Below are positions 21,940-34,779 of a stretch of DNA of 40,600 nt, piece by piece. Numbering within the stretch: position 1 is the stretch's first letter; every line of letters begins with the position of its first letter. This DNA comes from Chromobacterium piscinae (GTDB lineage Bacteria > Pseudomonadota > Gammaproteobacteria > Burkholderiales > Chromobacteriaceae): the NCBI RefSeq assembly GCF_021129175.1, contig NZ_JAJOHV010000004.1, positions 1-40,600 of the forward strand. The letters are read 5' to 3'. Under the pieces are notes generated by a model. The model saw only the letters and a program-made list of their open reading frames with translations. It was not told where the DNA came from and ran no database searches. The position numbers and the translations under genes were made by a program.

Positions 21940-23376
21940 TCAGGCGCTGCCCACCAGCCCCCGCGCTTTCGACCCCGCCTGGGCCGCATCCACGCCGAAC
22001 ATCGCCTGCAAGGCCAATGCTTTGACGTCGGTGACGGACAACTCCACTTCGCAAGCGAAAGCGCAGTCGCTGATCAGCAGCGGCGCGTCCGCGGCATCGC
22101 GCGCGGGCAGCCCATGCGATCCCTTGACCACGCTGGCATCCAGGCCGATCACATCCATCAGGCTGCGCATGCCCAGCGCGCGCTTGGCCAGCCGGCTGGC
22201 CACGGCCAGCTTGGGGAAGCGGATGCTCGGGTCGATGAACAGCTCCGCCGGGTCGTAGCCGGGCTTGCGGTGGATGTCCACCGTGCGCGCGAAATCCGGC
22301 GCCCTGGCATCGTCCAGCCAATAGTAATAACTGAACCAGGCGTCATCCTCGGACAACGCGACGAAATCCCCGGCGCGCTCGTGATTCAGGCCCAGCTCGC
22401 CGCGCGCGCGCCCTTGCCACACCCCCGCCACGCCCGGGATGGACCGCAGCGCCTCCTCCACTTCGGCGGCCTTGCGCGCGCCCAAACCGGGCTGCAAATA
22501 GACATGAGCGATCTGGTGGTCCGCCACGGCGAACGCCTGGCATTGGCTGGGGTCCAGAATCTCCGCGCCCGCCTCATGCCGCACCTGCAGCAGGCCCGCT
22601 TCGCGCAGATGGCGGTTCAGATGCACCGCGCGTCTCACCGGGGTGATGCCGTACTCTGACACCACCATCACCTGATAGCCCCGCTCTCGCGCATGAGCGA
22701 TCAAATCCCCCGCCACCGCGTCGATGTCCCGCAAGGACTGCCGCACCGCGGGATGCCCCAGATCCGGTCCGTAGCGCTGCAGATCGTAATCCAGATGGGG
22801 AAGGTAGCTCAGCAACAGGCTGGGGCGAAAATCGGCCATCGCCAGCTTGCTGGCTTCGGCGATCCAGCGGCTGGACGCGATGGAGGTGGCCGGTCCCCAG
22901 AAATGGAACAAGGGAAACGGACCCAGCTCCGCCGTCAGCCGGTCCCGCCATTCGGCGGGCCTGGTGTGGCAATCGGGCAGCTTGCGGCCATCAGCCTTGT
23001 AAATGGGACGCGGCGTCGCGCCGAAATCATGGCTGGACGCCATGTTGTACCACCAGAACAGGTTGGCGCAGGAAAAGTCCGGGTCGTGCCGCTTGCCCGC
23101 CTCCCACAAGCGCTCGCCGTGGACCAGGCGGTTGGACTGGCGCCAGAACCAGACCTCCGCCAGCTCGCGGAACAGCCAGCCATTGCCGACGATGCCGTGC
23201 TGCTCCGGCATCAGCCCAGTCAACATGCTCGCCTGCACAGAACAGGTCACCGCCGGCACTATGCTGTTCAAAGTCCTGACTGCGCCCTGGCCGGCAAACT
23301 CGGCCAAGCGGGGCGTGTGCTCCCCGATGAGGCGCGATGTCAGGCCAACGATATCGAGCAGAAGCAGCGGTTGCAT
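21940..23376 (-). CDS. eboF: EboF-type alkaline phosphatase/nucleotide pyrophosphatase family protein
   Basis: This 478-residue protein of the alkaline phosphatase superfamily resembles type I phosphodiesterases/nucleotide pyrophosphatases. Metal and nucleophile positions are seen in LLLLDIVGLT (Asp), PAVTCSVQASMLTG (nucleophile Thr), LLSYLPHLDYDLQRYGPD, VVSEYGITPV and VKGSHGLP. No signal peptide is visible, so it should be cytoplasmic. AAAGGTGG precedes the ATG at 23376. It is divergent from the operon that encodes EboD, E, C, A and B, and such a phosphatase belongs to ebo clusters as I remember them. The symbol rests on this context. Its substrate is unknown. Confidence 0.75.
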   Translation of the reverse strand: MQPLLLLDIVGLTSRLIGEHTPRLAEFAGQGAVRTLNSIVPAVTCSVQASMLTGLMPEQHGIVGNGWLFRELAEVWFWRQSNRLVHGERLWEAGKRHDPDFSCANLFWWYNMASSHDFGATPRPIYKADGRKLPDCHTRPAEWRDRLTAELGPFPLFHFWGPATSIASSRWIAEASKLAMADFRPSLLLSYLPHLDYDLQRYGPDLGHPAVRQSLRDIDAVAGDLIAHARERGYQVMVVSEYGITPVRRAVHLNRHLREAGLLQVRHEAGAEILDPSQCQAFAVADHQIAHVYLQPGLGARKAAEVEEALRSIPGVAGVWQGRARGELGLNHERAGDFVALSEDDAWFSYYYWLDDARAPDFARTVDIHRKPGYDPAELFIDPSIRFPKLAVASRLAKRALGMRSLMDVIGLDASVVKGSHGLPARDAADAPLLISDCAFACEVELSVTDVKALALQAMFGVDAAQAGSKARGLVGSA

Positions 23377-23555
23377 ACATCCACCTTTCCCTTATCACGC
23401 GACTTGCGGCGGCCCGGACAAGAAACGCGCGGCGACACGGCCTAATCTGCCGTCTGGCCCGCCCCGCCCGGAGACCACCGCCCTGGCCTAAGCTGCCGAT
23501 ATAGGCATTTAGATACCAATAAACTCCACAATAGGATCAAAACAGCCAATCGTCA

Positions 23556-23584
23556 TTGAAATTATTGAAACCCTCCCCTAGAAA
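23556..23584 (+). promoter_or_regulatory. Candidate promoter of the vioB-like/ebo operon
   Basis: TTGAAA (-35) and TAGAAA (-10) with a 17-bp spacer lie 92 bp before the start at 23677, in the AT-richer 300-bp gap between the divergent eboF and vioB-like genes. No operator or terminator is obvious in this gap. Confidence 0.4.
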
Positions 23585-23676
23585 TACAGCTGATGCTCGC
23601 ATCCTTCCCGTATTCGCCGTCCCGCCGCATCGCAAAGCCGCTCAAGACCGTAGCAACCTTATCGAGGAGCTATCGC

Positions 23677-25836
23677 ATGAGTTATCTCCAGTACCCCCGC
23701 CTGGCCTTCTCCGGCCTGTTCCAATCCGATGTCTCCACCGTCAACAACGATCCGCGCCATTTCGACAACGCCACCTTTGAACAGCGCTTCCAGGAGCCGC
23801 GTTACCAGCCCCCCGTGCAGGAAGACGCCGGCGGCGCTCAGGTCTCGATCAACAACGGCTGGTGGAACCCTTGGGGCACCGGCATCTTCGGGCTGAAGAA
23901 TTGCGTGGTGCAATCGGCGCTGGGACCGGATGGCCAGGAAATCCTGAGCAGCGGCGAAGACGCCGCTGTCGGCCTGCTCGTGGGCAACGCCAACGACCAG
24001 CCTTCCGGCAAGATGGTGGACCTGGACCCGGACTGGCAACTGGCTTCCTGTATTTACGGCCAAGTGATCACCCTGCGCTCCGCCAATGGACAAGTGCTGA
24101 TGCGCGGCCAATACGCGCCCAACCCCTTCCGCGACCTGTGGTTCAACCGGGTGGGGAATATATCGGGCGACAGCGCGGCCTCCGCCATCTGGCAGACTCA
24201 GCTCACCCATGTGGAATGGGATCTGGACAAGATCGACAGCCCGGTGCTGCATGCCCTGAAAGCCATCTGCGAGCAACAGGGCAATATCCTGTCGTTGCGG
24301 CTGACCACTTACGGCTACGACGACGACTTGGGCGAAAGCTTCTTCTCCTACGGCATCCTGCTGGGCGCCATCGGCCCCGCTTATGAGACCGAACCGGAAT
24401 CCTTCATTCTGGGCCGCCGCTTCATTCCCGCCAATAATCTGCTGCCGTCCGACGCTTACCAGCCGCAAGACTATGTTCCCAATGTCGGCTGGTTCAGCGC
24501 GCAAGTGGTGACAAACGACAAAACCCAAAGCAGCACTCTGTACGTGGACCTCAGCAACGCGCTGCCCTTGGTCTACAAACCCTCCCAAACTCCGCCAGAC
24601 GGCAGTCGCCCAAGGCCTGTAAGCACGCCGGAAACGACTTACGAGGTAGACATTCTCTGCGGCAGGGGCAGCGGCAATCCAGCAGCCCCTAAAGAAGGCA
24701 ATAGCCAACAGCTGTGGCAGCAACCCCTGATCATCGCTCAATTGACGTCGCAGACGCTGCCGACCAGTCCTTATCTGCAGCCGGGACAAACCGTTCCGGC
24801 TCCCGCAGCTGCGCAATATCAGCCACTGGCGACCATCGACATCAGCAATGCCAATCTGCTCAGCCGCAGCGGCATTGTCGCAGTGCCGATTCCTGCATCC
24901 ATGCAACCGAGCATCAACCAACTGCCGCTGGCATTGCTGACTTCAGCCAATCCCAACACCGGCATCGCCTTGCTATTGTGCTGCGAAGGAAGCGGCGGCT
25001 GGGAAGTGCGCGCCGACCAATTCGCGCTGCGCCTTGACCCCAACGACGCGGAGGCCAACGTTTTGGACTCCGACGTTTACGTCGCGCAATATGGCGTGCC
25101 GCTGGCCAATGGCGACGTCACCCTGGCCGTCACCTCCACCGGTCCCCAAGTGGATGTGGGCGACTGTCCCTCCGACACCCCGCCGGAAACAACGCCCAAG
25201 GCTCCGGCTCCCACCTTCAACGTGCCGGCGGAGCAAGTCCGCTTCGCCCAGAACACTGCGCGCACCGATGCCAACGGCATGGTGAAGCTTACCTTCAATG
25301 GCCCGCTGGCCCTGGGTTACCCCCGCTATTACATCGATGGCCAGCTGTTCAACTATGCCTACAACTTCGCGTCCGATCCCTCCCCCCCCAAGTCGGCGGC
25401 GCCGCAGCCTACGGTACAGCAGATGTTCGACCAGTACGTGATCGTCGTCCGCTCCACCTATGTGGTTCCCGATACGGTCACCTGGGAAGACGTGCAGCCC
25501 ATCCTGCAACAATACGCCAACCTGTATCCGGTGATGAGCCAAGGCCTGTTCGACTTCTCCAAGAAGGAACAGGCGGACGCCAACGCCTTCATCCTCAAGT
25601 TCGTGCTGGACAAACCGGATGACGACCCGGACCAGATGCCGGTCACGCGGGATCTGTCCAGCAGCAAGCGCCAGGCGCTGATCAAGTATTTCGACAGCGT
25701 GCTGCAGGAACAAGGCCGCCCTCCCAGCATGCTGGACATGTTCGGCAAGCGTTGCCCCACCCGAGGCGGAGGTTCTCAAAAAGACTGCCCTCAAGGCTCC
25801 GTCAGCTACGGCAAGCCCGACTGCCCGGCTAAATAA
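23677..25836 (+). CDS. VioB/RebD/StaD-like protein, N-terminal half
   Basis: This 719-residue protein resembles the N-terminal part of VioB, the haem enzyme that couples two indole-3-pyruvate imines in violacein synthesis. The start MSYLQYPRLAFSGLF follows the family pattern (PR-x-x-F-x-G), and the segment WEDVQPILQQYANLYPVMSQ, at about residue 610, parallels the end of that region in VioB. The frame is open from 23593, but GAGGAG at 23664-23669 fixes the ATG at 23677. VioB is a single chain of about 1000 residues; here the chain stops after a Cys-rich tail (RCPTRGGGSQKDCPQ) and the ferritin-like half is a separate gene 29 bp on. The haem site cannot be assigned by eye. Homology is seen from memory, not by search. 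Confidence 0.82.
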   Translation: MSYLQYPRLAFSGLFQSDVSTVNNDPRHFDNATFEQRFQEPRYQPPVQEDAGGAQVSINNGWWNPWGTGIFGLKNCVVQSALGPDGQEILSSGEDAAVGLLVGNANDQPSGKMVDLDPDWQLASCIYGQVITLRSANGQVLMRGQYAPNPFRDLWFNRVGNISGDSAASAIWQTQLTHVEWDLDKIDSPVLHALKAICEQQGNILSLRLTTYGYDDDLGESFFSYGILLGAIGPAYETEPESFILGRRFIPANNLLPSDAYQPQDYVPNVGWFSAQVVTNDKTQSSTLYVDLSNALPLVYKPSQTPPDGSRPRPVSTPETTYEVDILCGRGSGNPAAPKEGNSQQLWQQPLIIAQLTSQTLPTSPYLQPGQTVPAPAAAQYQPLATIDISNANLLSRSGIVAVPIPASMQPSINQLPLALLTSANPNTGIALLLCCEGSGGWEVRADQFALRLDPNDAEANVLDSDVYVAQYGVPLANGDVTLAVTSTGPQVDVGDCPSDTPPETTPKAPAPTFNVPAEQVRFAQNTARTDANGMVKLTFNGPLALGYPRYYIDGQLFNYAYNFASDPSPPKSAAPQPTVQQMFDQYVIVVRSTYVVPDTVTWEDVQPILQQYANLYPVMSQGLFDFSKKEQADANAFILKFVLDKPDDDPDQMPVTRDLSSSKRQALIKYFDSVLQEQGRPPSMLDMFGKRCPTRGGGSQKDCPQGSVSYGKPDCPAK

Positions 25837-25865
25837 CCGAGCTTCCACTTCGAAAGGGTACCAAT

Positions 25866-27077
25866 ATGCTGCGCATCAAACAGAGCATCATCAATCAATT
25901 GCTGAAGGGCTGTAGCCTGGATGAACTGAAGAAAGCCGTGACTACCGCGATCGCGCTTGAGTTCTCCACCATCCCCCCCTATCTGACCGGACTGTTTTCC
26001 ATCATGCCCGGCAGCAATCAAAGAGCCTCCGCCCTGATTCAATCCATCGTCACCGAGGAAATGCTGCACCTGACGCTGGCCTCCAACATCCTGATCGCCA
26101 TCGGGGGCAATCCGGACATCGTCGCCATCGGCCGCTCCCTGGTTTATCCGGGACCCTTGCCGGACCAGATCGACAACGATCTGCAAGTGGGGCTGGCCGC
26201 GCTCAGCAAACCGCAGCTGAAAAAAGTGTTCATGGCGATAGAACGCCCGGAAACCAAACCGGGGGAAATCCTGCCTGGCGAGGAAGCGCCGCAACCCACG
26301 CCGGTCGACCCCGGCGAGTTCGGCTCCATCGGCCAGTTCTACAAGGCTCTGCTGACCGCCCTGGCCATCGCCAACGCCAACAATCCGGGACTGTTCTCCA
26401 CCCCTAGGCTGGAACAGCAGCTCGACATCAGCAAGTGGTTCCCGCCGGTCCCCACCGCGCCGGCGAATGGTCAGATCCGCAATCTCGACGATGCGGCGAT
26501 GGCGATCAACACCATCATCATCCAAGGCGAAGGCATCGAAACTGGAGGCGAGAGCCAGGGGAATCTCGAAGGCCAGAGAATCGAGGGCAAACTCAGGAAG
26601 GCAAATCTGAATGAATCGATCCTGCCGCGGCATCGTCACGGCGGAAACGGAGGCGTGTCCGTCGAGAATGTCAGCCCTGGCGACGGTGACGGCAGCTACG
26701 CGCACTATTTTAAATTCGGCGAGATCTTTTACGGCCGCGAGCTGATGCCAGACCCCGAAGCCGTATCGGGCTGGTCCTACAACGGCGCGCCGGTGCCGCT
26801 GGATGAAAGCCAGATCTACAACTTCCTGCCCAACGCCGCCGTCAGCGATTACCTGCCCGGCTCATCCGCCTCCGTCGCCGCCCAACGCTTCTACGATGCC
26901 TACCAAATGCTGCTGACCAGCCTGAATCAGGTGTTCAACGGCAAACCGGCAGCCATGGACCGGGCGATGGGCCTGATGTACCAGTTGAAGCTGCAAGCAC
27001 AGCAGGTCGCGCAATGTCCGGTCGGCGGCAATGCGTCCAACCTGATGGCGGCCCCGCCATTCATGCTGATCCGTTGA
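25866..27077 (+). CDS. VioB C-terminal-like ferritin-fold protein
   Basis: This 403-residue protein matches the ferritin-like domain (PF12902 type) that forms the C-terminal part of VioB/RebD. The di-metal ligands fit in the right order: E32 (IALEFSTIPPYL), E65 and H68 (TEEMLHLT), E222 (QGEGIETGG), H280 and E286 (YAHYFKFGEIF). VioB has the same TDQGEGG and HYEHSHF blocks. AAAGGG precedes the ATG. It sits 29 bp after the N-terminal half, so the two chains probably form one enzyme. The substrate is unknown; an aromatic 2-imino acid is the family's usual one. A hairpin follows before eboD. Confidence 0.88.
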   Translation: MLRIKQSIINQLLKGCSLDELKKAVTTAIALEFSTIPPYLTGLFSIMPGSNQRASALIQSIVTEEMLHLTLASNILIAIGGNPDIVAIGRSLVYPGPLPDQIDNDLQVGLAALSKPQLKKVFMAIERPETKPGEILPGEEAPQPTPVDPGEFGSIGQFYKALLTALAIANANNPGLFSTPRLEQQLDISKWFPPVPTAPANGQIRNLDDAAMAINTIIIQGEGIETGGESQGNLEGQRIEGKLRKANLNESILPRHRHGGNGGVSVENVSPGDGDGSYAHYFKFGEIFYGRELMPDPEAVSGWSYNGAPVPLDESQIYNFLPNAAVSDYLPGSSASVAAQRFYDAYQMLLTSLNQVFNGKPAAMDRAMGLMYQLKLQAQQVAQCPVGGNASNLMAAPPFMLIR

Positions 27078-27085
27078 TCCCCCGT

Positions 27086-27123
27086 GGCTACGCGCTCCCG
27101 CCAGCCTTCCGGAACGCGTAGCC
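27086..27123 (+). other. Intercistronic hairpin before eboD
   Basis: GGCTACGCG and CGCGTAGCC form 9-bp perfect arms around a 20-nt loop, with no T-run. It lies inside the operon between the ferritin-like gene and eboD and ends just before the eboD ribosome site. It may stabilise the upstream mRNA or lower downstream expression. Confidence 0.6.
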
Positions 27124-27142
27124 TTCGAACAAGGAGATGCCG

Positions 27143-28426
27143 ATGAAACTGGCCGGAACAGACCCTGTTCGCCTACTCCCGACCTCCCGCGACGCAGCAG
27201 CGGATGCCCGACCGGATTCGCATCAACGTTTGCAACTAAACCATGACTTCAGCGTGATCCACACCCGCGACGCCTTCGCCGCGGACAACCCCGCCCTGCT
27301 TCAGGTCCTGCGCCGCCGCGAGCCCGCCAAGCGGCATCGCCTGGCGGTTTTCATCGACGACGGCGTGCTGCGCGCCTGCCCGGAACTGCCGCAGCGCATC
27401 CGCGGCTACGCGGACACCCACGCCGCCCACCTGGAAATAGCCGGGGAGATCGTGCCGCTGCCGGGCGGAGAAGCCTGCAAGAACGATCCCCTGCACCTGT
27501 GGTTGCTGCTGCAGGCCCTGGCCGACCGCAATATAGACCGCCACTCCTACGCGCTGGCCATAGGCGGCGGCGCGGCGCTGGACACAGTCGGCCTGGCCGC
27601 GTCGCTGTTCCATCGCGGCGTGCGCCACATCCGCCTGCCGTCCACGGTGCTGTCCCAAGCCGACAGCGGCGTCGGCGTGAAAAACGCCATCAACTGGAAC
27701 GGGCAGAAAAACCTGATCGGCAGCTTCGCCGTGCCCTGGGCCGTGATCAACGACGCGGCGCTGATCGATGGTTTGCCCGCGCGCGAGAAGCGCGCCGGCA
27801 TGGCCGAGGCGGTGAAGGTGGCGCTGATCCGCGACGCGTCATTCTTCCGCTGGCTGGAAGCCCGGGCCGACGCGCTCGCCCGCTTCGAGCAGCCAGACCT
27901 GGAGGAACTGATACAACGCTCGGCGGCGCTGCACCTGCGCCAGATCACCCAGGGCGGCGACCCATTCGAGCAGGGCTCGGCTCGCCCGCTGGACTACGGC
28001 CATTGGATCGCCCACAAACTCGAGCGGCTGAGCGCCCATGCGCTGAACCACGGCGAAGCCGTGGCCATAGGCATCGCCTGCGACGCGCGCTATTCGGCGT
28101 TGGCCGGACTGCTGCCCGCGGGAGACGAGGCCCGCGTCTGGCGACTGCTGCGCGCGCTGGGCTTCGAGCTATGGCACGAACAGCTGCTGGCCCAAGACGA
28201 GCATGGCCGGCTGGCGCTACTGCAAGGCCTCGGCGAATTCCGCGAACACCTAGGCGGCGCTCTGTGCGTGACCCTGCTGGAAGAGCTGGGCCGCGGCCGG
28301 GAGGTAAACACCGTAGATGGCGAGCGCGTCATGCAAAGCATCCTCTGGCTGCAGCAACGGCACGCCGCCCCTTCGCCCGATGCCCGCGCCGGCGTCAACG
28401 AAACGGTCTGCGGAGCCGGAAGATGA
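27143..28426 (+). CDS. eboD: EboD, 3-dehydroquinate synthase-like protein
   Basis: This 427-residue protein belongs to the dehydroquinate synthase fold. It keeps the NAD motif GGGAALDTVGLAAS, PSTVLSQADSGVGVKNAIN and NLIGSFAVP, and metal-ligand regions AEAVKVALI, DYGHWIAHKLE and HGEAVAIGI. It is longer at the N-terminus than AroB and its divergence suggests another substrate, as in other sugar-phosphate cyclases. Two ATGs follow AAGGAG; the first touches it, so the second (27143) is chosen. It overlaps eboE by ATGA. In ebo clusters the homologue is needed for metabolite traffic, but its reaction is not known. Confidence 0.88.
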   Translation: MKLAGTDPVRLLPTSRDAAADARPDSHQRLQLNHDFSVIHTRDAFAADNPALLQVLRRREPAKRHRLAVFIDDGVLRACPELPQRIRGYADTHAAHLEIAGEIVPLPGGEACKNDPLHLWLLLQALADRNIDRHSYALAIGGGAALDTVGLAASLFHRGVRHIRLPSTVLSQADSGVGVKNAINWNGQKNLIGSFAVPWAVINDAALIDGLPAREKRAGMAEAVKVALIRDASFFRWLEARADALARFEQPDLEELIQRSAALHLRQITQGGDPFEQGSARPLDYGHWIAHKLERLSAHALNHGEAVAIGIACDARYSALAGLLPAGDEARVWRLLRALGFELWHEQLLAQDEHGRLALLQGLGEFREHLGGALCVTLLEELGRGREVNTVDGERVMQSILWLQQRHAAPSPDARAGVNETVCGAGR

Positions 28427-29652
28427 AGCTGGCGCACCTGCCCCTGCCCGCGCATCTTTCCTATTGCACCAATATCCATGCCGGCGACAGCCTGGCCGAG
28501 GTCGAGGCCAGCCTGGATGATTTCCTGCCGGCGATCCGCGCCCATCTGGAGGAATGGCGGGCGCTGGCCCCCGACGCGCCATTCGGCCTGGGGCTGCGGC
28601 TGTCCGCCCAGGCGGCGGAAAGCCTGCTGCAGCCAGACATGCTGCGCGCCTTCGCCGCCCGGCTGGAGTCGCTGCATGCCTATGTGTTCACCATCAATGC
28701 CTTCCCTTGGGGAAACTTTCATCAGAAACCGGTGAAGCAGGCGGTCTACCAGCCCGACTGGCGCAGTGGCCAGCGCGCCGCTTACACCGTCCATTGCGCG
28801 CGGACGCTGGCCGCGCTGCTGCCTGCGGACGTGGAAGGAAGCATCTCCACCGTGCCCCTGGGTTTCGCCGAAAGGGACCGCGCGGCGGCGATGGCGGACT
28901 CGCTGCCGCAACTGCGGCTAGCCGTGCTGGAGCTCAACCGGCTGATGCGCGAAACCGGCAAGGAAATCGTTCTGGCGCTGGAGCCGGAGCCCGCCTGTCT
29001 GCTGGAAAACGCCGCCGACGCATTGCATTTTTTCCAGCGATATTGGTTTGCCGAGGACAACCTGGCGCAACTGGCCCGACAGGCTGGCTGCGCGCAGCCC
29101 GAAGCCCGGCGGCTGGCGCAGCGCCATCTGGGTGTCTGCTACGACGTCTGCCACGGCGCGATTGAATTCGAAGACCCATGCGCGGCGCTGGCCGGGCTGC
29201 TCAACGCCGGCATCCGCATCGCCAAGATCCAGCTATCCTGCGCCCTCAGGGTGGAGGAGATGGATGCGCGCGCCGCGCTTCAGCTGCAGGCCTTCGACGA
29301 CGGGGTTTACCTGCATCAGGTGGTCAGACGCAATGCGTCCGGCCTGCAGCGCCACCCGGACTTGCCGCAGGCGCTGAGCCTGCCGCTCGACGCCATCCGG
29401 CGGGAATCATGGCGCGTGCACTGCCACGTGCCGCTGTTTTGGCAAGCACAGCCGGAAGCGGGCCTAGCCAACACCCGCGACAGCCTGGACGCGGTGCTCG
29501 GCCTGCTGCGCCGGCAAGCCATCAGCCCCCATCTCGAAGTGGAAACCTACACCTGGGACGTGTTGCCGCCCCAATTGCGCGAAATACCCAAGGCCCAGGC
29601 GATCGCGCTCGAATTGCACACCGTCATGAAGGAGCTGCGCCATGAGCGCTGA
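28423..29652 (+). CDS. eboE: EboE, TIM-barrel metabolite traffic protein
   Basis: This 409-residue protein resembles xylose isomerase-like TIM barrels and specifically EboE. Typical marks are the start LSYCTNIHAGDSL, NAFPWGNFH, ISTVPLGF, LALEPEPACLLE, HLGVCYDVCHGAIEFEDP, KIQLSCALR and the end HLEVETYTWDVLPP. Acidic and His residues at strand ends could bind a metal. It overlaps eboD by 4 bp and eboC by 11 bp, so the three are translated together. No enzymatic reaction has been shown for the family as far as I know. Confidence 0.9.
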   Translation: MKLAHLPLPAHLSYCTNIHAGDSLAEVEASLDDFLPAIRAHLEEWRALAPDAPFGLGLRLSAQAAESLLQPDMLRAFAARLESLHAYVFTINAFPWGNFHQKPVKQAVYQPDWRSGQRAAYTVHCARTLAALLPADVEGSISTVPLGFAERDRAAAMADSLPQLRLAVLELNRLMRETGKEIVLALEPEPACLLENAADALHFFQRYWFAEDNLAQLARQAGCAQPEARRLAQRHLGVCYDVCHGAIEFEDPCAALAGLLNAGIRIAKIQLSCALRVEEMDARAALQLQAFDDGVYLHQVVRRNASGLQRHPDLPQALSLPLDAIRRESWRVHCHVPLFWQAQPEAGLANTRDSLDAVLGLLRRQAISPHLEVETYTWDVLPPQLREIPKAQAIALELHTVMKELRHER

Positions 29653-30583
29653 CGCCATTTCATCGATGCCGGCCTGGCTGCGCCTGGGCCGCGTTTCCAA
29701 CCTGCCCACCGTGCTCAGCAACGCGCTGGCCGCCGCGCTGCTGGGCGCCGCGTCCGGCGGACAAGCATTAAGCTCGGCAAACCTGGCGGCCCTGCCCCCG
29801 TTGATGCTGTCGATGTGCCTGTTTTACATGGGCGGCATGTACCTCAACGACGCCTTCGACCGCGAAATCGATGCCCGCGAACGTCCCCAGCGCCCCATTC
29901 CATCCGGCGAAGCCCGCGCGCAAACGGTTTTCGCCTGCGGCTTCGGCATGCTGCTGGCCGGCTGGCTGCTGCTGGGGCTGTACGGCAACAATCACAGCCG
30001 CTTTTACGGCGCGCTGCTGGCATCAAGCATCGTGCTCTACAACGTCTGGCATAAGGACAATCCCTGCAGCCCGCTGCTGATGGGCGCCTGCCGCGCCCTG
30101 CTCTGCCTGTGCGTCGGCTCGGCCTTCGCCGGCGGCACCCCGCCGCTGCTCTGTCTGGCGGCTGCCCTGCTGCTGGCGCATATCGTTGGACTCAGCCACG
30201 CCGCCAAGCAGGAAAGCCTGGACCGCATCGGCGCCCTCTGGCCGCTTGCTGTGCTCGGCCTGCCGCCATTGGCTTACTTGCTGCTGGCCCTGGTCCGGTT
30301 CATCACCGACGAAACCGCTCAAGCCTGGCATGCCTTGGCGCTGGCCGCGCTGCTAGCCGCCGCTCTGGTCGCCGCGCTCGCACTCGCCGTGGCGCGGCTG
30401 ATCAAGCGATCCGCTCCCGGCGCGGTCGGACAGGCGGTGGCGCGGATGATCGCCGCCGTCAGCCTGCTGGACGGCCTGGCCCTGGCCGCCTGCCTGCCGC
30501 AGCCCGCGCCCGCGGCCATCCTCGGCTGCGTGGCGGCCTATTTCGCCACGCGCTTCCTGCAAACCTATATCCCGGGAACCTGA
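29642..30583 (+). CDS. eboC: EboC, UbiA-like membrane prenyltransferase
   Basis: This 313-residue integral membrane protein has about eight hydrophobic helices and the first UbiA aspartate motif N69-D-A-F-D-R-E-I-D77, then RPQRP (81-85), which binds the Mg-diphosphate of a prenyl donor. The second motif region reads SHAAKQESLDRIG and is less canonical. UbiA enzymes attach isoprenoids to aromatic or other acceptors in the membrane. In ebo clusters EboC could make a lipid carrier or anchor for the trafficked compound; this is inference. Its start lies inside eboE. Confidence 0.9.
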   Translation: MSADAISSMPAWLRLGRVSNLPTVLSNALAAALLGAASGGQALSSANLAALPPLMLSMCLFYMGGMYLNDAFDREIDARERPQRPIPSGEARAQTVFACGFGMLLAGWLLLGLYGNNHSRFYGALLASSIVLYNVWHKDNPCSPLLMGACRALLCLCVGSAFAGGTPPLLCLAAALLLAHIVGLSHAAKQESLDRIGALWPLAVLGLPPLAYLLLALVRFITDETAQAWHALALAALLAAALVAALALAVARLIKRSAPGAVGQAVARMIAAVSLLDGLALAACLPQPAPAAILGCVAAYFATRFLQTYIPGT

Positions 30584-30585
30584 AC

Positions 30586-31539
30586 ATGCGCAGCGACACT
30601 CAAGACCCGACTCTCGCCCCCCACACCCTTCCCGCCTCAGACGCATGGAGCGCCTGGCAACCCCGCATGCGCGCCTGGCAAGAGCTGCTGCAAGGCTGGC
30701 TGAGCGCCCGAGCCGACGGCGACTGGTACGCGCGGCAATGCCAGGATCTGGCCCACGCCACCGCGGGCGACCGCCCGCTGAACCTGCTGTTCAAAGCGAT
30801 GGGCATCGCGCCGCGCAAGCTGGGCAAACAAGACCTGGCGCTCAGCGAGGCGGAACAGCGCCAGGCCCGCGCCTTGCAGCCCGGCTTCGACTCCATTCGC
30901 TGGAGCGTGGATCAGGCGGCCCGCGTCGGTTTGATACTGGCCGCGTCCGGCAATCTGCCCGATGGGGCGGCCTTCGCAGCCCTGCTCGACGAGCTGGCGA
31001 ATCAGGGCGACATCCAGGAACAGATCGCCCTGTATCAGGGATTCGCCCTGTATCCGCAAGATCCCGCCTTGCTCGCGCGCGCCGGCGAAGCCGTGCGCAG
31101 CGGCATCCGTCCGGTCTTCGCCGCCTTCGCGCTGCGCGATCCCTGGCCGCAAGCGATGCTGCCGCAAGCGGCGTGGAATCAGATGGTGGTCAAAACCTTC
31201 TTTCTGGACTTGCCGCTGTGGCCGATTCAGGGGCTGGCTGATCGCGCCAATCAGGATTTGGGCGAAATCCTGTGCGACCTGGCGGCGGAGCGCGCCGCCG
31301 CCGGCCGCGGCCTGAACCTGGAACTCTGGCGCCTGCTGGCGCTATGCCCCGGCGAGCGCGGACACGCGCTGCTGCGCCGGCAATACGCCGACACCCGTCC
31401 CGGCACGCATGAGATGTACGCCTTGCAACTGGCGGCGAGGGAAAGCCCGCATGCAGATGTCCGGGCACTGGCGCCTGTCGGACTACCCGGCATCGAATTC
31501 AGCGACGAATGGGAACGGCTGGCCCAGTGGCGGGAATGA
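30586..31539 (+). CDS. eboA: EboA-domain protein
   Basis: This 317-residue protein of unknown fold is Ala/Leu-rich and apparently all-helical, with no signal peptide. Marks include LALSEAEQRQARALQPGFD, SWSVDQAAR-like RWSVDQAARVGLIL and NQMVVKTFFLDLPLWPIQGL, the last typical of EboA proteins. The frame is open upstream to 30109, but the ATG at 30586, two bases after the eboC stop, fits the operon. It is essential in other ebo systems, but its biochemical role is unknown. Confidence 0.85.
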   Translation: MRSDTQDPTLAPHTLPASDAWSAWQPRMRAWQELLQGWLSARADGDWYARQCQDLAHATAGDRPLNLLFKAMGIAPRKLGKQDLALSEAEQRQARALQPGFDSIRWSVDQAARVGLILAASGNLPDGAAFAALLDELANQGDIQEQIALYQGFALYPQDPALLARAGEAVRSGIRPVFAAFALRDPWPQAMLPQAAWNQMVVKTFFLDLPLWPIQGLADRANQDLGEILCDLAAERAAAGRGLNLELWRLLALCPGERGHALLRRQYADTRPGTHEMYALQLAARESPHADVRALAPVGLPGIEFSDEWERLAQWRE

Positions 31540-31560
31540 ATCCAACAAGGGGGAAACCAG

Positions 31561-32634
31561 ATGAGCGACATCCAGCAAGCAATCGAAGAAATGTTTTCCG
31601 ACCGCAGCGCGGCCTGCCCCTGCTGCGGGTCGACATTGAGTCCGGAAATGCTGCGAGGCCTGCTGCGGCAAGCCTCGCAGCGGCAACAGGAGCGCCAGTC
31701 GCGTCACCACCTCTCTCCGGGCGCGAGCGGCATGCTGATAGACCCGCACGCCCACATGATCGCGCGCACCACCGACGACTACGAGGCGATGGCCGCCAGC
31801 GGCGTCGTCGCCGTGATCGAACCGGCATTCTGGCTGGGGCAGGCGCGCACCAACGTGGGCAGCTTCATCGATTACTTCTCTACCATCGCCGGCTTCGAGC
31901 GCTTCCGCGCCGCGCAGTTCGGCATCCGCCACTACTGCGCGATCGGCCTGAATCCCAAGGAGGCCAACAACCGCGAACTCGCCGACGCCGTGCTGGATCT
32001 CCTGCCGCGCTACCTGGGCAAGGAAGGCGTGGTGGCCTTGGGGGAAATCGGCTACGACGAGCAGACCGAGCAGGAAGACCGCGCCTTCCGAGCGCAAATC
32101 GAGCTGGCCCAGGAATTCGACCTGCCCATCATGATCCACACGCCGCACCGCGACAAAAAACGCGGCACCAAGCGGACGATGGATACGCTGGAAGCCTGCG
32201 GCTTCGATCCCGCGCGCTGCGTGATCGACCACAACAACGAGGAAACGGTGCAGGAAGTTCTGGATCGCGGCTATTGGTGCGCGTTCACGATCTACCCCTC
32301 AACCAAGATGGGCAACGACCGTCTGGCTGCCATCGTCGAGCGCTACGGCCCGGAACGCATCATTGTCGACTCCGCCTGCGATTGGGGCGTGTCCGACCCG
32401 CTGGCCGTCGCCAAGTCGGCGCGCATCATGGCCGCCCACGGCCTCGACGAAGCCGTGATACGGCAGGTGGTCTACCACAATGCGCTGGCGGTCTACGGCC
32501 TGAGCGGCGAAATGAGCGAAACCGACTGGCTGGAACCCGCGCCGGTGGATCAGCGCACGCTGTACGGCGGCAATTCGGTATTGCGCGGCCAGGCGCCGCG
32601 AGTGGACCAGGACAACCCCGACCGCATCGTGTGA
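31561..32634 (+). CDS. eboB: EboB, TatD-family metal hydrolase with Cys-rich N-terminus
   Basis: This 357-residue amidohydrolase has a TatD-like barrel from residue 58. Metal ligands appear as D61-P-H63-A-H65, GEIGYDE, MIHTPH, VIDHNNEE and the Asp in IIVDSACDW. Before the barrel is a 57-residue extension with C19-P-C-C22 (AACPCCGSTL), like half a zinc ribbon. The AGGGGG site and ATG at 31561 are well spaced, so the extension belongs to the gene. TatD enzymes are 3' exonucleases, but the EboB group is set apart and its substrate is not known. Confidence 0.88.
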   Translation: MSDIQQAIEEMFSDRSAACPCCGSTLSPEMLRGLLRQASQRQQERQSRHHLSPGASGMLIDPHAHMIARTTDDYEAMAASGVVAVIEPAFWLGQARTNVGSFIDYFSTIAGFERFRAAQFGIRHYCAIGLNPKEANNRELADAVLDLLPRYLGKEGVVALGEIGYDEQTEQEDRAFRAQIELAQEFDLPIMIHTPHRDKKRGTKRTMDTLEACGFDPARCVIDHNNEETVQEVLDRGYWCAFTIYPSTKMGNDRLAAIVERYGPERIIVDSACDWGVSDPLAVAKSARIMAAHGLDEAVIRQVVYHNALAVYGLSGEMSETDWLEPAPVDQRTLYGGNSVLRGQAPRVDQDNPDRIV

Positions 32635-32661
32635 CGGCGGAACCTTCCCAAAGGAAACGGC

Positions 32662-33441
32662 ATGACAAGCAGACAGAGCAACCCCGTGAGCCTGGTTTCG
32701 CAATGGTTCATCCGCCACGGCTGCGTCGAACAAGTGCTGTCGGCGCTGCCCGCCTATGTGCAGGAAGTGATGGAGGAGCCGGGAACGCTGATCTATCTGG
32801 TTCACGCCCCGCTGCCGGAAAACAATCCCAATCCCTTGCTGCAATCGCTGCCGCCCGCCGTGCGCCCCAGCCTGCTGTTCTTCGAAGAATATGCCAGCGA
32901 AGACGCTTTTCTGGCCCATGTCAAAGGCCCGGCCTTCACCGCTTTCGTCGACAAATACGGCCAGTGCTTCATCAGCAGCGATGGCCATCCCTATAACACG
33001 GTCACCTTCCTGCGCCGCGAACAGGGCTTCATCCGCGGCCTGGACAGCCGTTCTCCGCAAGCCGAGCAGATCGGCAGCCTGAACCGGCACCCGGCGGTGA
33101 TGTTTGAAATCATCGCCAGGGATCAGGACAAATCCAAGGCGTTCTATAGCGAGGTGTTCGGCTGGCGCTACCAGAACGGCGGCTCCGGCTTCGCCTATGT
33201 GCACTTCCCGCTGCAATTGCGCACCTTGCTGGGCGGCATCGGCCAATCCGAGAAAGGCGTGCCCGGCATGGAGCCGGGACACAGCTTCTATTTGCTGGTG
33301 GAAGACTTGCCGCTGGCGATAGACCGCGCGCTGGCCGCCGGCGGCAGTCCGCACATGCCGATCACCAGCGTGGACGGCTACACTTTCGCCATGGTCAAAG
33401 ATCCGGAAGGCAACCCGATCGGCCTGCTGCAGGCGGTCTGA
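32662..33441 (+). CDS. ABM monooxygenase-VOC (glyoxalase-fold) fusion protein
   Basis: This 259-residue protein joins two small domains. Residues about 8-110 look like an antibiotic biosynthesis monooxygenase (YgiN-type) domain: EEPGTLIYLVHAP, LLFFEEYASEDAFLAHVKGPAF. Residues about 140-259 form a VOC domain: VMFEIIARDQDKSKAFYSEVFGW, ending FAMVKDPEGNPIGLLQ. AAAGGAAA precedes the ATG, 27 bp after eboB, so it is the last gene of the operon. ABM domains oxidise aromatic polyketides or quinols without cofactors. A tailoring or detoxifying role for the operon's product is likely but unproven. Confidence 0.8.
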   Translation: MTSRQSNPVSLVSQWFIRHGCVEQVLSALPAYVQEVMEEPGTLIYLVHAPLPENNPNPLLQSLPPAVRPSLLFFEEYASEDAFLAHVKGPAFTAFVDKYGQCFISSDGHPYNTVTFLRREQGFIRGLDSRSPQAEQIGSLNRHPAVMFEIIARDQDKSKAFYSEVFGWRYQNGGSGFAYVHFPLQLRTLLGGIGQSEKGVPGMEPGHSFYLLVEDLPLAIDRALAAGGSPHMPITSVDGYTFAMVKDPEGNPIGLLQAV

Positions 33442-33453
33442 ACGCGGGCGGCC

Positions 33454-33486
33454 TTCGCGCCCCAAGCCCTGTCCGCGAGGCGCGAA
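33454..33486. terminator. Possible terminator of the ebo operon
   Basis: TTCGCGCC and GGCGCGAA form 8-bp perfect arms with a 17-nt loop, just after the last ebo-operon gene and before the convergent Lrp gene. No T-run follows. Confidence 0.4.
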
Positions 33487-33544
33487 AACGGAACCGCCGG
33501 TACTGGCCGCGCGGCGCTTCAAACTTGCCTCCCCCCGCCTCCTG

Positions 33545-34036
33545 CTAGCGGCGCGCTTCCGGTCCCACCGGCAGCCGGCCCGACATCTTCACTTCGCGCA
33601 GCGACAGGCTGGAGCGGATGGACGACACGCCTGGCAGTTCGCGCAGCACGTCGCGCACGAAGACGCCAAACGCCTCCAGATCCTCGGCGACCACCTGCAG
33701 CAGGTAGTCGCACTCGCCAGTCAGGTTATGGCAGGACAGTACCTCCGGAATCGCCTGCACCCGCTCCTCGAAACGCAGCGGCGCTTCGCCGATGTGGCTG
33801 CCGAAGCCGATCTGCACGAAGGCGAGTACCCCGTAGCCCAGTTTCTTGCGGCTCAGCACCGCCTGATATCCCTCGATATAACCATCGGCCTCCAGCCGCT
33901 TCAGCCTGCGCCAGCACGGCGTCTCGCTCAGCGCCACCTGCTCGGCCAGCTTCGCATTGGACAGCCGTCCGTCCTTCTGCAACAAGGCCATTAGAGTGAA
34001 ATCCACATCATCAAGGTCTGATTTTGGAAGATTCAT
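33545..34036 (-). CDS. Lrp/AsnC-family transcriptional regulator
   Basis: This 163-residue protein has an N-terminal winged HTH (LSNAKLAEQVALSETPCWRRLKRL, about 24-47) and a C-terminal RAM ligand-binding domain (CHNLTGECDYLLQVVAEDLEAF). Such proteins sense amino acids and control their transport or breakdown. It is divergent from a LysE-family exporter, which it probably regulates. The 125-bp gap between them is AT-rich. No clear ribosome site precedes the ATG at 34036. Confidence 0.93.
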   Translation of the reverse strand: MNLPKSDLDDVDFTLMALLQKDGRLSNAKLAEQVALSETPCWRRLKRLEADGYIEGYQAVLSRKKLGYGVLAFVQIGFGSHIGEAPLRFEERVQAIPEVLSCHNLTGECDYLLQVVAEDLEAFGVFVRDVLRELPGVSSIRSSLSLREVKMSGRLPVGPEARR

Positions 34037-34161
34037 TTATTCACAGCGCTATTAATAAAAGAGTCTTTTCAAATCTAACGCGACAACGCAAGAGAAAGCA
34101 AAGCAATTTCACCTCGCCGGGCGCACACTAGCCGCATCGCCTTCCTGTGCCGGAGCCCGCC

Positions 34162-34779
34162 ATGCTGTCCTTGTCCGTGTTGTCGCTCTACCTTGCCGCC
34201 CTTGTCGCCGTCTACATATTGCCTGGCCCGGACATGGCGCTGGTGATGGCCACCTCGGCCAGCCGCGGCGTCGGCGCCGGCTTGCTGACCGCGCTCGGCA
34301 TCGCCGCCTCCCGCTTTCTGCATGTGATGATGTCCGGCCTGGGGCTCGCCGCGCTGATGGCCACCCATCCGCTGCTGTTCGACGCGGTGCGCTGGGTCGG
34401 CGCCGGCTATCTGCTATGGCTGGCATGGAAGGTGGTGCGCGCCAAGCCGGCGCCAGAAGATGCGCCCCAAACGACCGAGTCAGGCCGCGCGGCGATCGCG
34501 CGCGGTTTTCTGACCAATCTGCTCAACCCCAAGGCGCTGATGTTCTGCGCCCTGTTCCTGCCCCAGTTCGTCTCGCCGGCGCACGGCGCGGTGCTGCCGC
34601 AGTTCGCGCTGCTCGCGGTCATTCTGGTTGCGGTGGGACTGTGTTTCGACACCGCCTACGCCTTCGCCGCCTGCGGCATCGCCCGCCGTCTGAAGGGCCG
34701 CGGCCCGGCGGCGAAGCTGCAGAAAGGCCTGCTCGGCGGCGTGTTCGTGCTGATGGCCGGCCGGTTGATCTTCGGCTGA
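34162..34779 (+). CDS. LysE/RhtB-family amino acid exporter
   Basis: This 205-residue inner-membrane protein has about six hydrophobic segments and the LysE family pattern: YILPGPDMALVMATSASRGVGAGLLTALGI near the start and GFLTNLLNPKALMF in the middle. The GTG at 34147 is possible, but GGAG at 34152-34155 favours the ATG at 34162. The substrate is probably an amino acid or derivative. It is divergent from the Lrp regulator, a common pairing for exporters induced by their substrate. Confidence 0.92.
   Translation: MLSLSVLSLYLAALVAVYILPGPDMALVMATSASRGVGAGLLTALGIAASRFLHVMMSGLGLAALMATHPLLFDAVRWVGAGYLLWLAWKVVRAKPAPEDAPQTTESGRAAIARGFLTNLLNPKALMFCALFLPQFVSPAHGAVLPQFALLAVILVAVGLCFDTAYAFAACGIARRLKGRGPAAKLQKGLLGGVFVLMAGRLIFG

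Follow-up and report, generated by a model that had tools for sequence, protein, structure and literature searches.

Organization of the operon

The locus described here raises the question of what two genes that resemble the halves of VioB are doing at the head of an ebo operon. It lies in a stretch of 40,600 nucleotides of the Chromobacterium piscinae genome (positions 1–40,600 of contig NZ_JAJOHV010000004.1), which is referred to below as the window. Eight genes form a single run on the + strand (23677–33441) in the order N, F, eboD, eboE, eboC, eboA, eboB and ABM-VOC, with successive gaps of 29, 59, −4, −11, 2, 21 and 27 bases. An earlier sequence-only reading of this DNA had described the same genes in the same order, and its coordinates were confirmed. 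N (23677–25836, +) encodes a 719-residue homologue of the N-terminal half of VioB, RebD and StaD. Its start at 23677 is the first ATG of a conserved MSYL start and is preceded by GAGGAG; an alternative ATG further upstream, at 23593, would extend the protein to 747 residues. F (25866–27077, +) encodes the 403-residue ferritin-like half (PF12902, 163 bits, cut-off 22). The next genes are eboD (27137–28426, +), encoding a 3-dehydroquinate synthase-like protein of the AroB family (NF004852, 557 bits, cut-off 333), and eboE (28423–29652, +), encoding a TIM-barrel metabolite traffic protein (NF035939, 415 bits, cut-off 250), whose start was re-set to 28423 in an ATGA overlap with eboD. They are followed by eboC (29642–30583, +) for a UbiA-like membrane prenyltransferase homologue (PF01040, 64 bits, cut-off 34), eboA (30586–31539, +; start re-set) with an EboA domain (NF035938, 128 bits, cut-off 50), and eboB (31561–32634, +) for a TatD-type metal-dependent hydrolase (PF01026, 68 bits, cut-off 27). 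The last gene (32662–33441, +) encodes a fusion of an antibiotic biosynthesis monooxygenase fold and a glyoxalase fold (ABM-VOC; PF03992 and PF00903).

The earlier reading had called the operon a complete ebo operon and named the five ebo genes in the run; a sixth had been overlooked. This gene, eboF (21940–23376, −), encodes a type I phosphodiesterase/nucleotide pyrophosphatase (PF01663, 224 bits, cut-off 23) and diverges from the run, so that all of eboA–eboF are present in the window; Mycetohabitans and Aureibacter likewise carry eboF homologues within their ebo clusters. The ebo assignments are based on scores above cut-off for EboE, EboD and the EboA domain, and on Pfam matches for EboB, EboF and EboC. 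With their own family models, EboC and EboA scored below cut-off (NF035940, 106 bits, cut-off 250, and NF035937, 172 bits, cut-off 320, respectively). Judging from position, the promoters of both eboF and the operon are presumed to lie in the 300 bases between eboF and N (23377–23676); scanning 23300–33700 for the sigma-70 consensus returned no site. The same operon is present in the close relatives examined, C. vaccinii and Jeongeupia. The Nostoc punctiforme ebo cluster, which serves scytonemin monomer export, contains the same six ebo genes; unlike in that cluster, N, F and ABM-VOC belong to the run in the window.

Relationship of N and F to VioB, RebD and StaD

A Pfam search with N returned no family. 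Profile–profile alignment with hhalign matched N to residues 1–583 of VioB (99.1%, E 1.7e-18) and to RebD/StaD-type proteins (99.0%), while ten shuffled, one reversed and eight unrelated control profiles all remained below 1% in the VioB comparison, and the N controls did likewise in the RebD/StaD-type comparison. F aligned with residues 595–932 of VioB (98.6%) and with RebD/StaD-type proteins (99.2%), so the two proteins cover VioB in order. The homology of both halves to VioB/RebD/StaD that had been proposed from the sequence is thus borne out for N and F alike. F retains E32, E65, H68, E126, E222 and H280, six glutamate and histidine residues common to the ferritin-like half of VioB, RebD and StaD, and these are candidate metal residues. 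N shares with the same proteins a start motif with R8, F11 and G13, the C-terminal M620 and, in nearly all cases, the motif MP..R.L. A search by sequence yielded no solved structure relevant to N or to VioB; a solved relative was found for the ferritin-like half alone (3hl1).

The pair resembles VioB, RebD and StaD, the enzymes of indole-3-pyruvate imine coupling in violacein, rebeccamycin and staurosporine biosynthesis, in both halves and their order. It differs from them in being encoded by two genes, in its linkage to ebo, in its want of a close tryptophan oxidase and in the position of F off the VioB/RebD branch. According to the accessible text of PMC10851217 and PMC10847564, the known enzymes contain haem and couple two imines. 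Where these are single polypeptides of ∼1000 residues, the window has two open reading frames 29 bases apart. The NCBIfam VioB equivalog model (TIGR04492, cut-off 1250 bits) gave 20 bits with N and no match with F, and 1856 bits with the VioB that this genome encodes elsewhere. In a tree of ferritin-like halves, F falls outside the VioB/RebD branch with a support of 99 for the dividing branch, whose length is 1.85 and 0.17 on either side of the midpoint root (a quick method with SH-aLRT support only). N-F as VioB proper is excluded by the two genes, the score far below the VioB cut-off, the position of F in the tree and the lack of a close VioA/RebO-type oxidase.

Tryptophan oxidases and other partners

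VioB, RebD and StaD are accompanied by an adjoining gene for an FAD tryptophan oxidase, and none was found within the window, in agreement with the earlier statement that no VioA-type oxidase is present here. The genome nonetheless encodes vioA, together with vioB and vioC, on another contig, all above their cut-offs. A VioA/RebO/StaO profile that gave 503 and 837–844 bits on positive loci found no match in 83 of 85 N-F loci and weak ones, of 58 and 22 bits, in the other two. The 58-bit match is an FAD amine oxidase of Trinickia dinghuensis, encoded ∼1.1 kb beyond F on the opposite strand, which reaches 62 bits with the NCBIfam VioA model (cut-off 600). Full-length VioB had no match in nine of 14 N-F genomes tested, which argues that the pair is independent of the vio pathway. 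Among the 104 neighbouring open reading frames scanned (loci L006 to L060; 247 listed), no recurrent pathway enzyme was found. Other PF12902 proteins of this genome adjoin a GMC-type oxidase and a LodA-like oxidase, and the ferritin-like fold therefore does not fix the chemistry. Proteins associated with LodA/GoxA or GMC oxidases belong to the same ferritin-like family as F, but their partner is an oxidase, whereas that of F is a VioB-N-like protein.

N and F as a unit and their linkage to ebo

N and F form a conserved two-gene unit, with F directly following N for 79 of 82 N genes. The three exceptions are a contig end, a reversed order and a single open frame containing both, the last in a Myxococcaceae metagenome-assembled genome (MAG) in which a stop codon may have been lost through sequencing error. 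ABM-VOC travels with the pair even where ebo is not nearby: it was found near N-F at more than 150 bits in 17 of 78 loci, nine of them ebo-linked.

Two peptide patterns retrieved 164 relatives, and the best of these make up the 78 loci. At least three ebo genes lie inside the flank examined in 33 of the 78 best-matching N loci, 14 of which are less than 15 kb long. In 27 of the 33, the pair and the ebo gene closest to it share a strand, and the 33 display 18 different gene-order strings. The survey of ebo clusters for VioB-like pairs suggested by the sequence-only reading thus revealed a link that recurs in three phyla and in many gene orders. The N tree requires at least 13 changes of the ebo link, so N-F and ebo are not one inherited block. 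When two genome samples were combined and two search centres left out, members of the N superfamily (many of them weak matches) co-occurred with EboE more often than expected (5/10 versus 22/652; Fisher p = 1.7e-5); in the gammaproteobacterial sample alone the co-occurrence was not significant (p = 0.11). In both surveys, scoring was confined to the three or four highest-ranking candidates of each genome, so N may have been missed in some.

The pair is an accessory of ebo clusters. Among ebo genomes sampled regardless of N-F, it stood beside ebo in the stretches read in one of 27; ebo clusters devoid of the pair, which had been named as evidence against the link, are thus frequent in wider groups (26 of 27 genomes) but were not seen in C. 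vaccinii or Jeongeupia. When 42 N-bearing genomes with no ebo near N were searched for EboE, none was found in 19, some of which are MAGs, and N-F probably has work without ebo. Judged by titles and the beginnings of abstracts, none of the literature matches listed connects ebo to genes of the VioB-like or ferritin-like kind; subscription papers, including those on EDB, were mostly outside reach and could already describe such a link. In the accessible parts of the ebo papers, the words 'ferritin' and 'VioB' do not appear in PMC6282210, 'ferritin' and 'violacein' in PMC5133447, 'ferritin' in PMC9235831, or any of the three in PMC6092422.

Possible functions of the pair

We give about an even chance to the proposal that the cargo delivered by Ebo proteins, or a precursor of it, is made by a split oxidase belonging to the VioB/RebD/StaD superfamily. 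N and F would be the two subunits of this oxidase, N a mostly β-stranded scaffold with a helical C-terminal part and F a ferritin-like subunit with a putative metal site, and they would most likely form one cytoplasmic complex. The substrate may be an oxidized amino-acid derivative, probably aromatic, supplied by an enzyme whose gene presumably lies at another locus of the genome. ABM-VOC may alter or bind what the complex produces, and by analogy with the scytonemin monomer in Nostoc, Ebo proteins could bring the product or its precursor to the periplasm. Such delivery was itself deduced from Nostoc mutants, according to the available text of PMC6282210. Against the proposal speak the lack of a close VioA/RebO-type oxidase or recurrent pathway enzyme beside the pair in the loci scanned, the varied oxidase partners of PF12902 proteins, the position of F in the tree, the many ebo clusters sampled that lack N-F, the N-bearing genomes that gave no EboE and the non-significant gammaproteobacterial sample. 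Homology, the two-gene unit, recurrent ebo linkage and retention of the candidate metal residues are established; complex formation, metal binding, the aromatic substrate, the order of the steps and transport are what we infer.

The sequence-only reading had proposed an aromatic dimer made in the cytoplasm and moved across the membrane. Its basis in homology and in a recurrent ebo link stands, but the dimer itself is conjectural. A true dimer synthase, coupling two oxidized aromatic amino acids and leaving export of the dimer or its precursor to ebo, would fit the homology of both halves, the shared motifs and candidate metal residues, the VioA encoded in the same genome and the distant VioA-like amine oxidase near the N-F-ebo locus of Trinickia dinghuensis. 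Scytonemin, the ebo-dependent product in Nostoc, is moreover a dimer, but in the model given in the accessible text of PMC6282210 the order is reversed, the monomer being exported and then dimerized outside by ScyE. Together with the absence of a close tryptophan oxidase adjoining the pair in the 85 loci, the F tree and the genomes with no full-length VioB match, this makes dimer synthesis unlikely, though a serious candidate. Oxidation of a single molecule, for example of an aromatic imino or keto acid to an amide, aldehyde or similar product that Ebo delivers as a small aromatic repellent or signal, would be in line with the distance of N-F from known dimer synthases. It also draws on the EDB cluster of Pseudomonas fluorescens NZI7, known for nematode repellence, which, like the window, contains ebo (PMC6282210) and in E. 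coli reportedly converted tryptophan to indole compounds (PMC9655573; both from the parts of the texts available). VioB-N-like genes lie downstream of eboF in 17 of 17 Pseudomonas ebo loci read, which do not include the NZI7 cluster. There the N-like gene adjoins a cytochrome-like gene, whereas its counterpart in the window adjoins ferritin-like F; the stretches read gave no ferritin-like match, and the chemistry may differ from that in the window. On this evidence single-molecule oxidation is possible, if somewhat doubtful. The Pseudomonas loci and the indole compounds of the EDB cluster also speak for the split-oxidase proposal.

The pair could instead be a tailoring oxidase for a cyclitol- or prenyl-derived metabolite that the ebo enzymes build, without itself supplying any aromatic cargo. 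The resemblance of EboC and EboD to a prenyltransferase and AroB and the variety of oxidases that adjoin PF12902 proteins are compatible with such a role, and a secondary metabolite made by ebo enzymes was proposed earlier (accessible text of PMC5133447). However, N-F also occurs in the 19 genomes in which EboE was not found, and we consider tailoring improbable. A chance neighbourhood of N-F and ebo, devoid of functional significance, would agree with the single pair found among 27 ebo genomes and with the non-significant gammaproteobacterial sample, but hardly with a link that 33 of the 78 N loci display across three phyla and 18 gene-order strings, usually with a shared strand, with the repeated changes of this link on the N tree, or with the pooled co-occurrence; we regard it as very improbable.

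Implications

With delivery by Ebo of a product of the split oxidase as the preferred reading, the recurring pairing is a concrete lead to the ebo cargo outside scytonemin producers, because the recurrent partner enzyme comes from a family of known chemistry and so narrows the field to oxidized amino-acid products. The data also suggest a two-subunit enzyme as the ancestor of VioB and RebD or as a relative of common origin; if true, this could aid the dissection of a family in which the sequence search found no relevant solved structure for N or VioB. In a broader and rather speculative view, which we hold only tentatively, the pair and Ebo would represent a widespread, unrecognized class of pathways in which a tryptophan- or tyrosine-derived compound, a dimer in some lineages, is synthesized in the cytoplasm and then completed or displayed in the periplasm for anti-grazing or protective purposes, with an older two-gene enzyme as the stock from which fused VioB and RebD arose as a single late branch. 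The pairing of N-F with ebo supplies strains, gene pairs and deletions for experiment.

Organization of the ebo operon and its surroundings

The operon (23677–33441, + strand) lies on contig C4, which in full is the window, of a 5.0-Mb genome. It consists of eight closely spaced genes, N, F, eboD, eboE, eboC, eboA, eboB and an ABM-VOC fusion, with successive gaps of 29, 59, −4, −11, 2, 21 and 27 bases. N (23677–25836) and F (25866–27077) are homologous to the N-terminal and ferritin-like (PF12902) halves of VioB/RebD/StaD, respectively. The sequence-only reading had recognized this run as an ebo operon but overlooked the sixth ebo gene, eboF (21940–23376, PF01663), which is divergent from it. 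Directly after the operon, at 33545–34779, an Lrp-type regulator (− strand) is divergent from a LysE-type exporter (+ strand). The Lrp gene is present in Chromobacterium vaccinii (L016) too, and no match to it was found next to the Jeongeupia operon (L017). N shares 96% identity in the best segment with a C. vaccinii protein, so the genome is probably that of a close relative of this species.

N and F form a two-part unit distinct from VioB

One genome per species was scanned for relatives of N across ∼85,000 species, and the best 78 distinct loci of 164 relatives were kept. In these loci, F is located immediately downstream of 79 of the 82 N genes; among the three exceptions, one gene is at a contig end, one is in reversed order and one is fused. 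In a Myxococcaceae metagenome-assembled genome, N and F form a single open frame of ∼900 residues, counted from the conserved start. Unless it reflects a sequencing error, this would be a second N-F fusion, apart from VioB/RebD, and would support N and F working as one enzyme.

Judged by sequence, the pair is not VioB proper. It scores 20 bits against the 1250-bit cut-off for the VioB equivalog, which the VioB of the same genome exceeds (1856 bits). When 44 ferritin-like halves are placed in a tree, built with a quick method and containing several long branches, VioB and RebD/StaD-type proteins cluster with one actinobacterial split pair and one lone protein, and the branch that parts this group from the remaining halves has a length of 1.85 plus 0.17 and a support of 99. 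The F protein of the window groups with further F proteins linked to N. A genome of an actinobacterial order encodes a split pair in which F precedes the N-like gene (L160 7927–11360); its F groups with VioB/RebD, and the pair may therefore resemble a form ancestral to the fused enzymes.

Other PF12902 proteins are encoded in the same genome. On contig C20 (L012 6972–9999), a GMC-type oxidoreductase is directly followed by one whose place in the 44-half tree is with the F proteins linked to N. On contig C147 (L014 928–9244), a LodA-like CTQ oxidase adjoins another, with a tyrosinase (PF00264) gene nearby. In a solitary, decayed-looking copy on contig C32 (L015 5595–6605), E65 and H68 of the candidate metal set of F are replaced by Q and R, and there are gaps at E126 and E222.

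A profile built from the tryptophan oxidases VioA, RebO and StaO, which scored 503 bits at the vio locus and 837 to 844 bits at reb/sta-type loci, gave only two weak matches over 85 N-F loci (58 and 22 bits). The 58-bit match is an FAD amine oxidase (PF01593) of Trinickia dinghuensis (L034 14247–15860), on the opposite strand ∼1.1 kb past F and near an N-F-ebo run. Its top NCBIfam match is VioA (62 of 600 bits), and this is the sole locus of the 85 with a distant oxidase of the VioA kind nearby. The earlier statement that no VioA-type oxidase is present here agrees with the profile search of the window. Elsewhere in the genome, vioA, vioB and vioC are located on contig C2. A predicted tryptophan oxidase therefore exists in the cell, with no tie from it to the ebo operon.

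Linkage of the pair to ebo

The proposed link between a VioB-like pair and ebo recurs well beyond Chromobacterium. Of the 78 loci (best of 164 relatives), 33 have at least three ebo genes in the flanking sequence retrieved, which extended up to 10 kb; this is a lower bound because 14 loci are shorter than 15 kb. Linkage is seen in alpha-, beta- and gammaproteobacteria, Bacteroidota and Cyanobacteria, with 18 distinct gene-order strings (scored genes only, with accessory genes and contig cuts counted in), and in 27 of the 33 linked loci N and its nearest ebo gene share a strand. When 87 N proteins are placed in a tree (39 with the link, 32 without it and 16 uncounted owing to contig ends), the ebo link must change at least 13 times, and well-supported branches force 12 of these changes. 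With shuffled labels, 23.6 changes are required, so the link is also partly inherited. Among records whose N locus had no nearby ebo cluster, EboE was present in 24 of 45 (23/42 genomes and 1/3 plasmids). The ABM-VOC gene is near N-F in 17 of the 78 loci, and in eight of these no ebo cluster lies close by; it is therefore a companion of the pair as much as of ebo. In three Paraburkholderia loci (L023, L027 and L063), ebo clusters have N-F downstream and, upstream, a further pair in the opposite order, with F before the N-like gene.

Two samples were drawn irrespective of the pair. The first, 369 genomes from the class of the window (GTDB Gammaproteobacteria, betaproteobacteria included), yielded EboE in 15 genomes and N in four, with the genome of the window counted in both. 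The fetched ebo stretches of the 14 other ebo genomes, some shortened by contig ends, contained no N or N-like gene; one of these genomes (G275) has an N-like gene on a different contig. The second, 295 genomes from one Bacteroidota class, yielded EboE in 14 genomes and N-superfamily matches, several of them weak, in eight. N-F lies inside the ebo run of G906, one of 13 Bacteroidota ebo genomes with the search centre excluded, and in G845 an N-like match is ∼19 kb away from EboE. Another Bacteroidota locus (L207, G928) carries two adjacent N paralogues; in both, part of the match contains a single in-frame stop.

With both search centres excluded, one of the 27 ebo genomes carries the pair next to ebo. 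The pair is thus mostly absent from ebo clusters sampled independently of it, which counts against a tight tie. The sequence-only reading had named ebo clusters of relatives with no link to the two genes as evidence against its proposal. In wider groups, 26 of the 27 ebo genomes have no pair next to ebo in the sequence read; the close relatives C. vaccinii and Jeongeupia have the same operon. Co-occurrence is still above expectation: in the pooled samples, both search centres excluded, EboE is present in 5 of 10 genomes with N-superfamily matches versus 22 of the 652 that have none (P = 1.7e-5). The Bacteroidota drive this result (P = 7.6e-5), and the gammaproteobacterial sample on its own is not significant (P = 0.11).

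VioB-N-like genes in Pseudomonas ebo loci

In the genus to which a P. cichorii genome belongs, EboE was found in 17 genomes among 149. In all 17 loci (18 to 19 kb read), eboF is followed by a gene encoding a secreted-looking CxxCH protein and next by a VioB-N-like gene, and no ferritin-like match was found within them. Comparison of the N of the window with this VioB-N-like family gave 99.9% (family profile of two sequences). CxxCH proteins with a signal-peptide-like start adjoin VioB-N-like genes in L094 (11016–12179 and 15601–16893) and L143–L158; two were scanned and matched no known family convincingly. A secreted-looking, cysteine-rich family of ∼330 residues, here named Sec350, is present in 12 of the 17 loci and adjoins N-F in 20 of the 78 loci (best of 164 relatives), 13 of them ebo-linked. 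Members include L008 16773–17816, L009 15443–16411, L018 5959–6939 and L038 13788–14801, among others, and two that were scanned had no convincing Pfam/NCBIfam match.

Passages of one paper describe the EDB cluster of P. fluorescens NZI7 as including ebo, with insertions in the ebo homologues making the strain edible to Caenorhabditis elegans (PMC6282210); passages of a review report that the cluster converts tryptophan to indole compounds in Escherichia coli (PMC9655573). Should the NZI7 cluster be like these 17 loci, one system would bring together a VioB-N-like protein, ebo and a product derived from tryptophan.

Proposed function of the N-F/ebo system

In the best supported mechanism, N-F would be a VioB/RebD-superfamily oxidase of two subunits whose substrate is an oxidised amino-acid derivative, and the Ebo proteins would carry its product, or the precursor of that product, to the periplasm. 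Coupling of two molecules by N-F is possible. In the scytonemin model, as given in passages of PMC6282210, the monomer and not the dimer is exported, and dimerisation takes place outside. Two rivals are live: N-F may oxidise a single molecule, or it may tailor a compound that ebo makes. The components of the system are all of known kinds. Literature listings and passages covering ebo and the VioB-like pair, with subscription papers mostly outside their coverage, gave no paper pairing the two among the matches listed. The split VioB-like pair as a repeated partner of ebo would be the new element.
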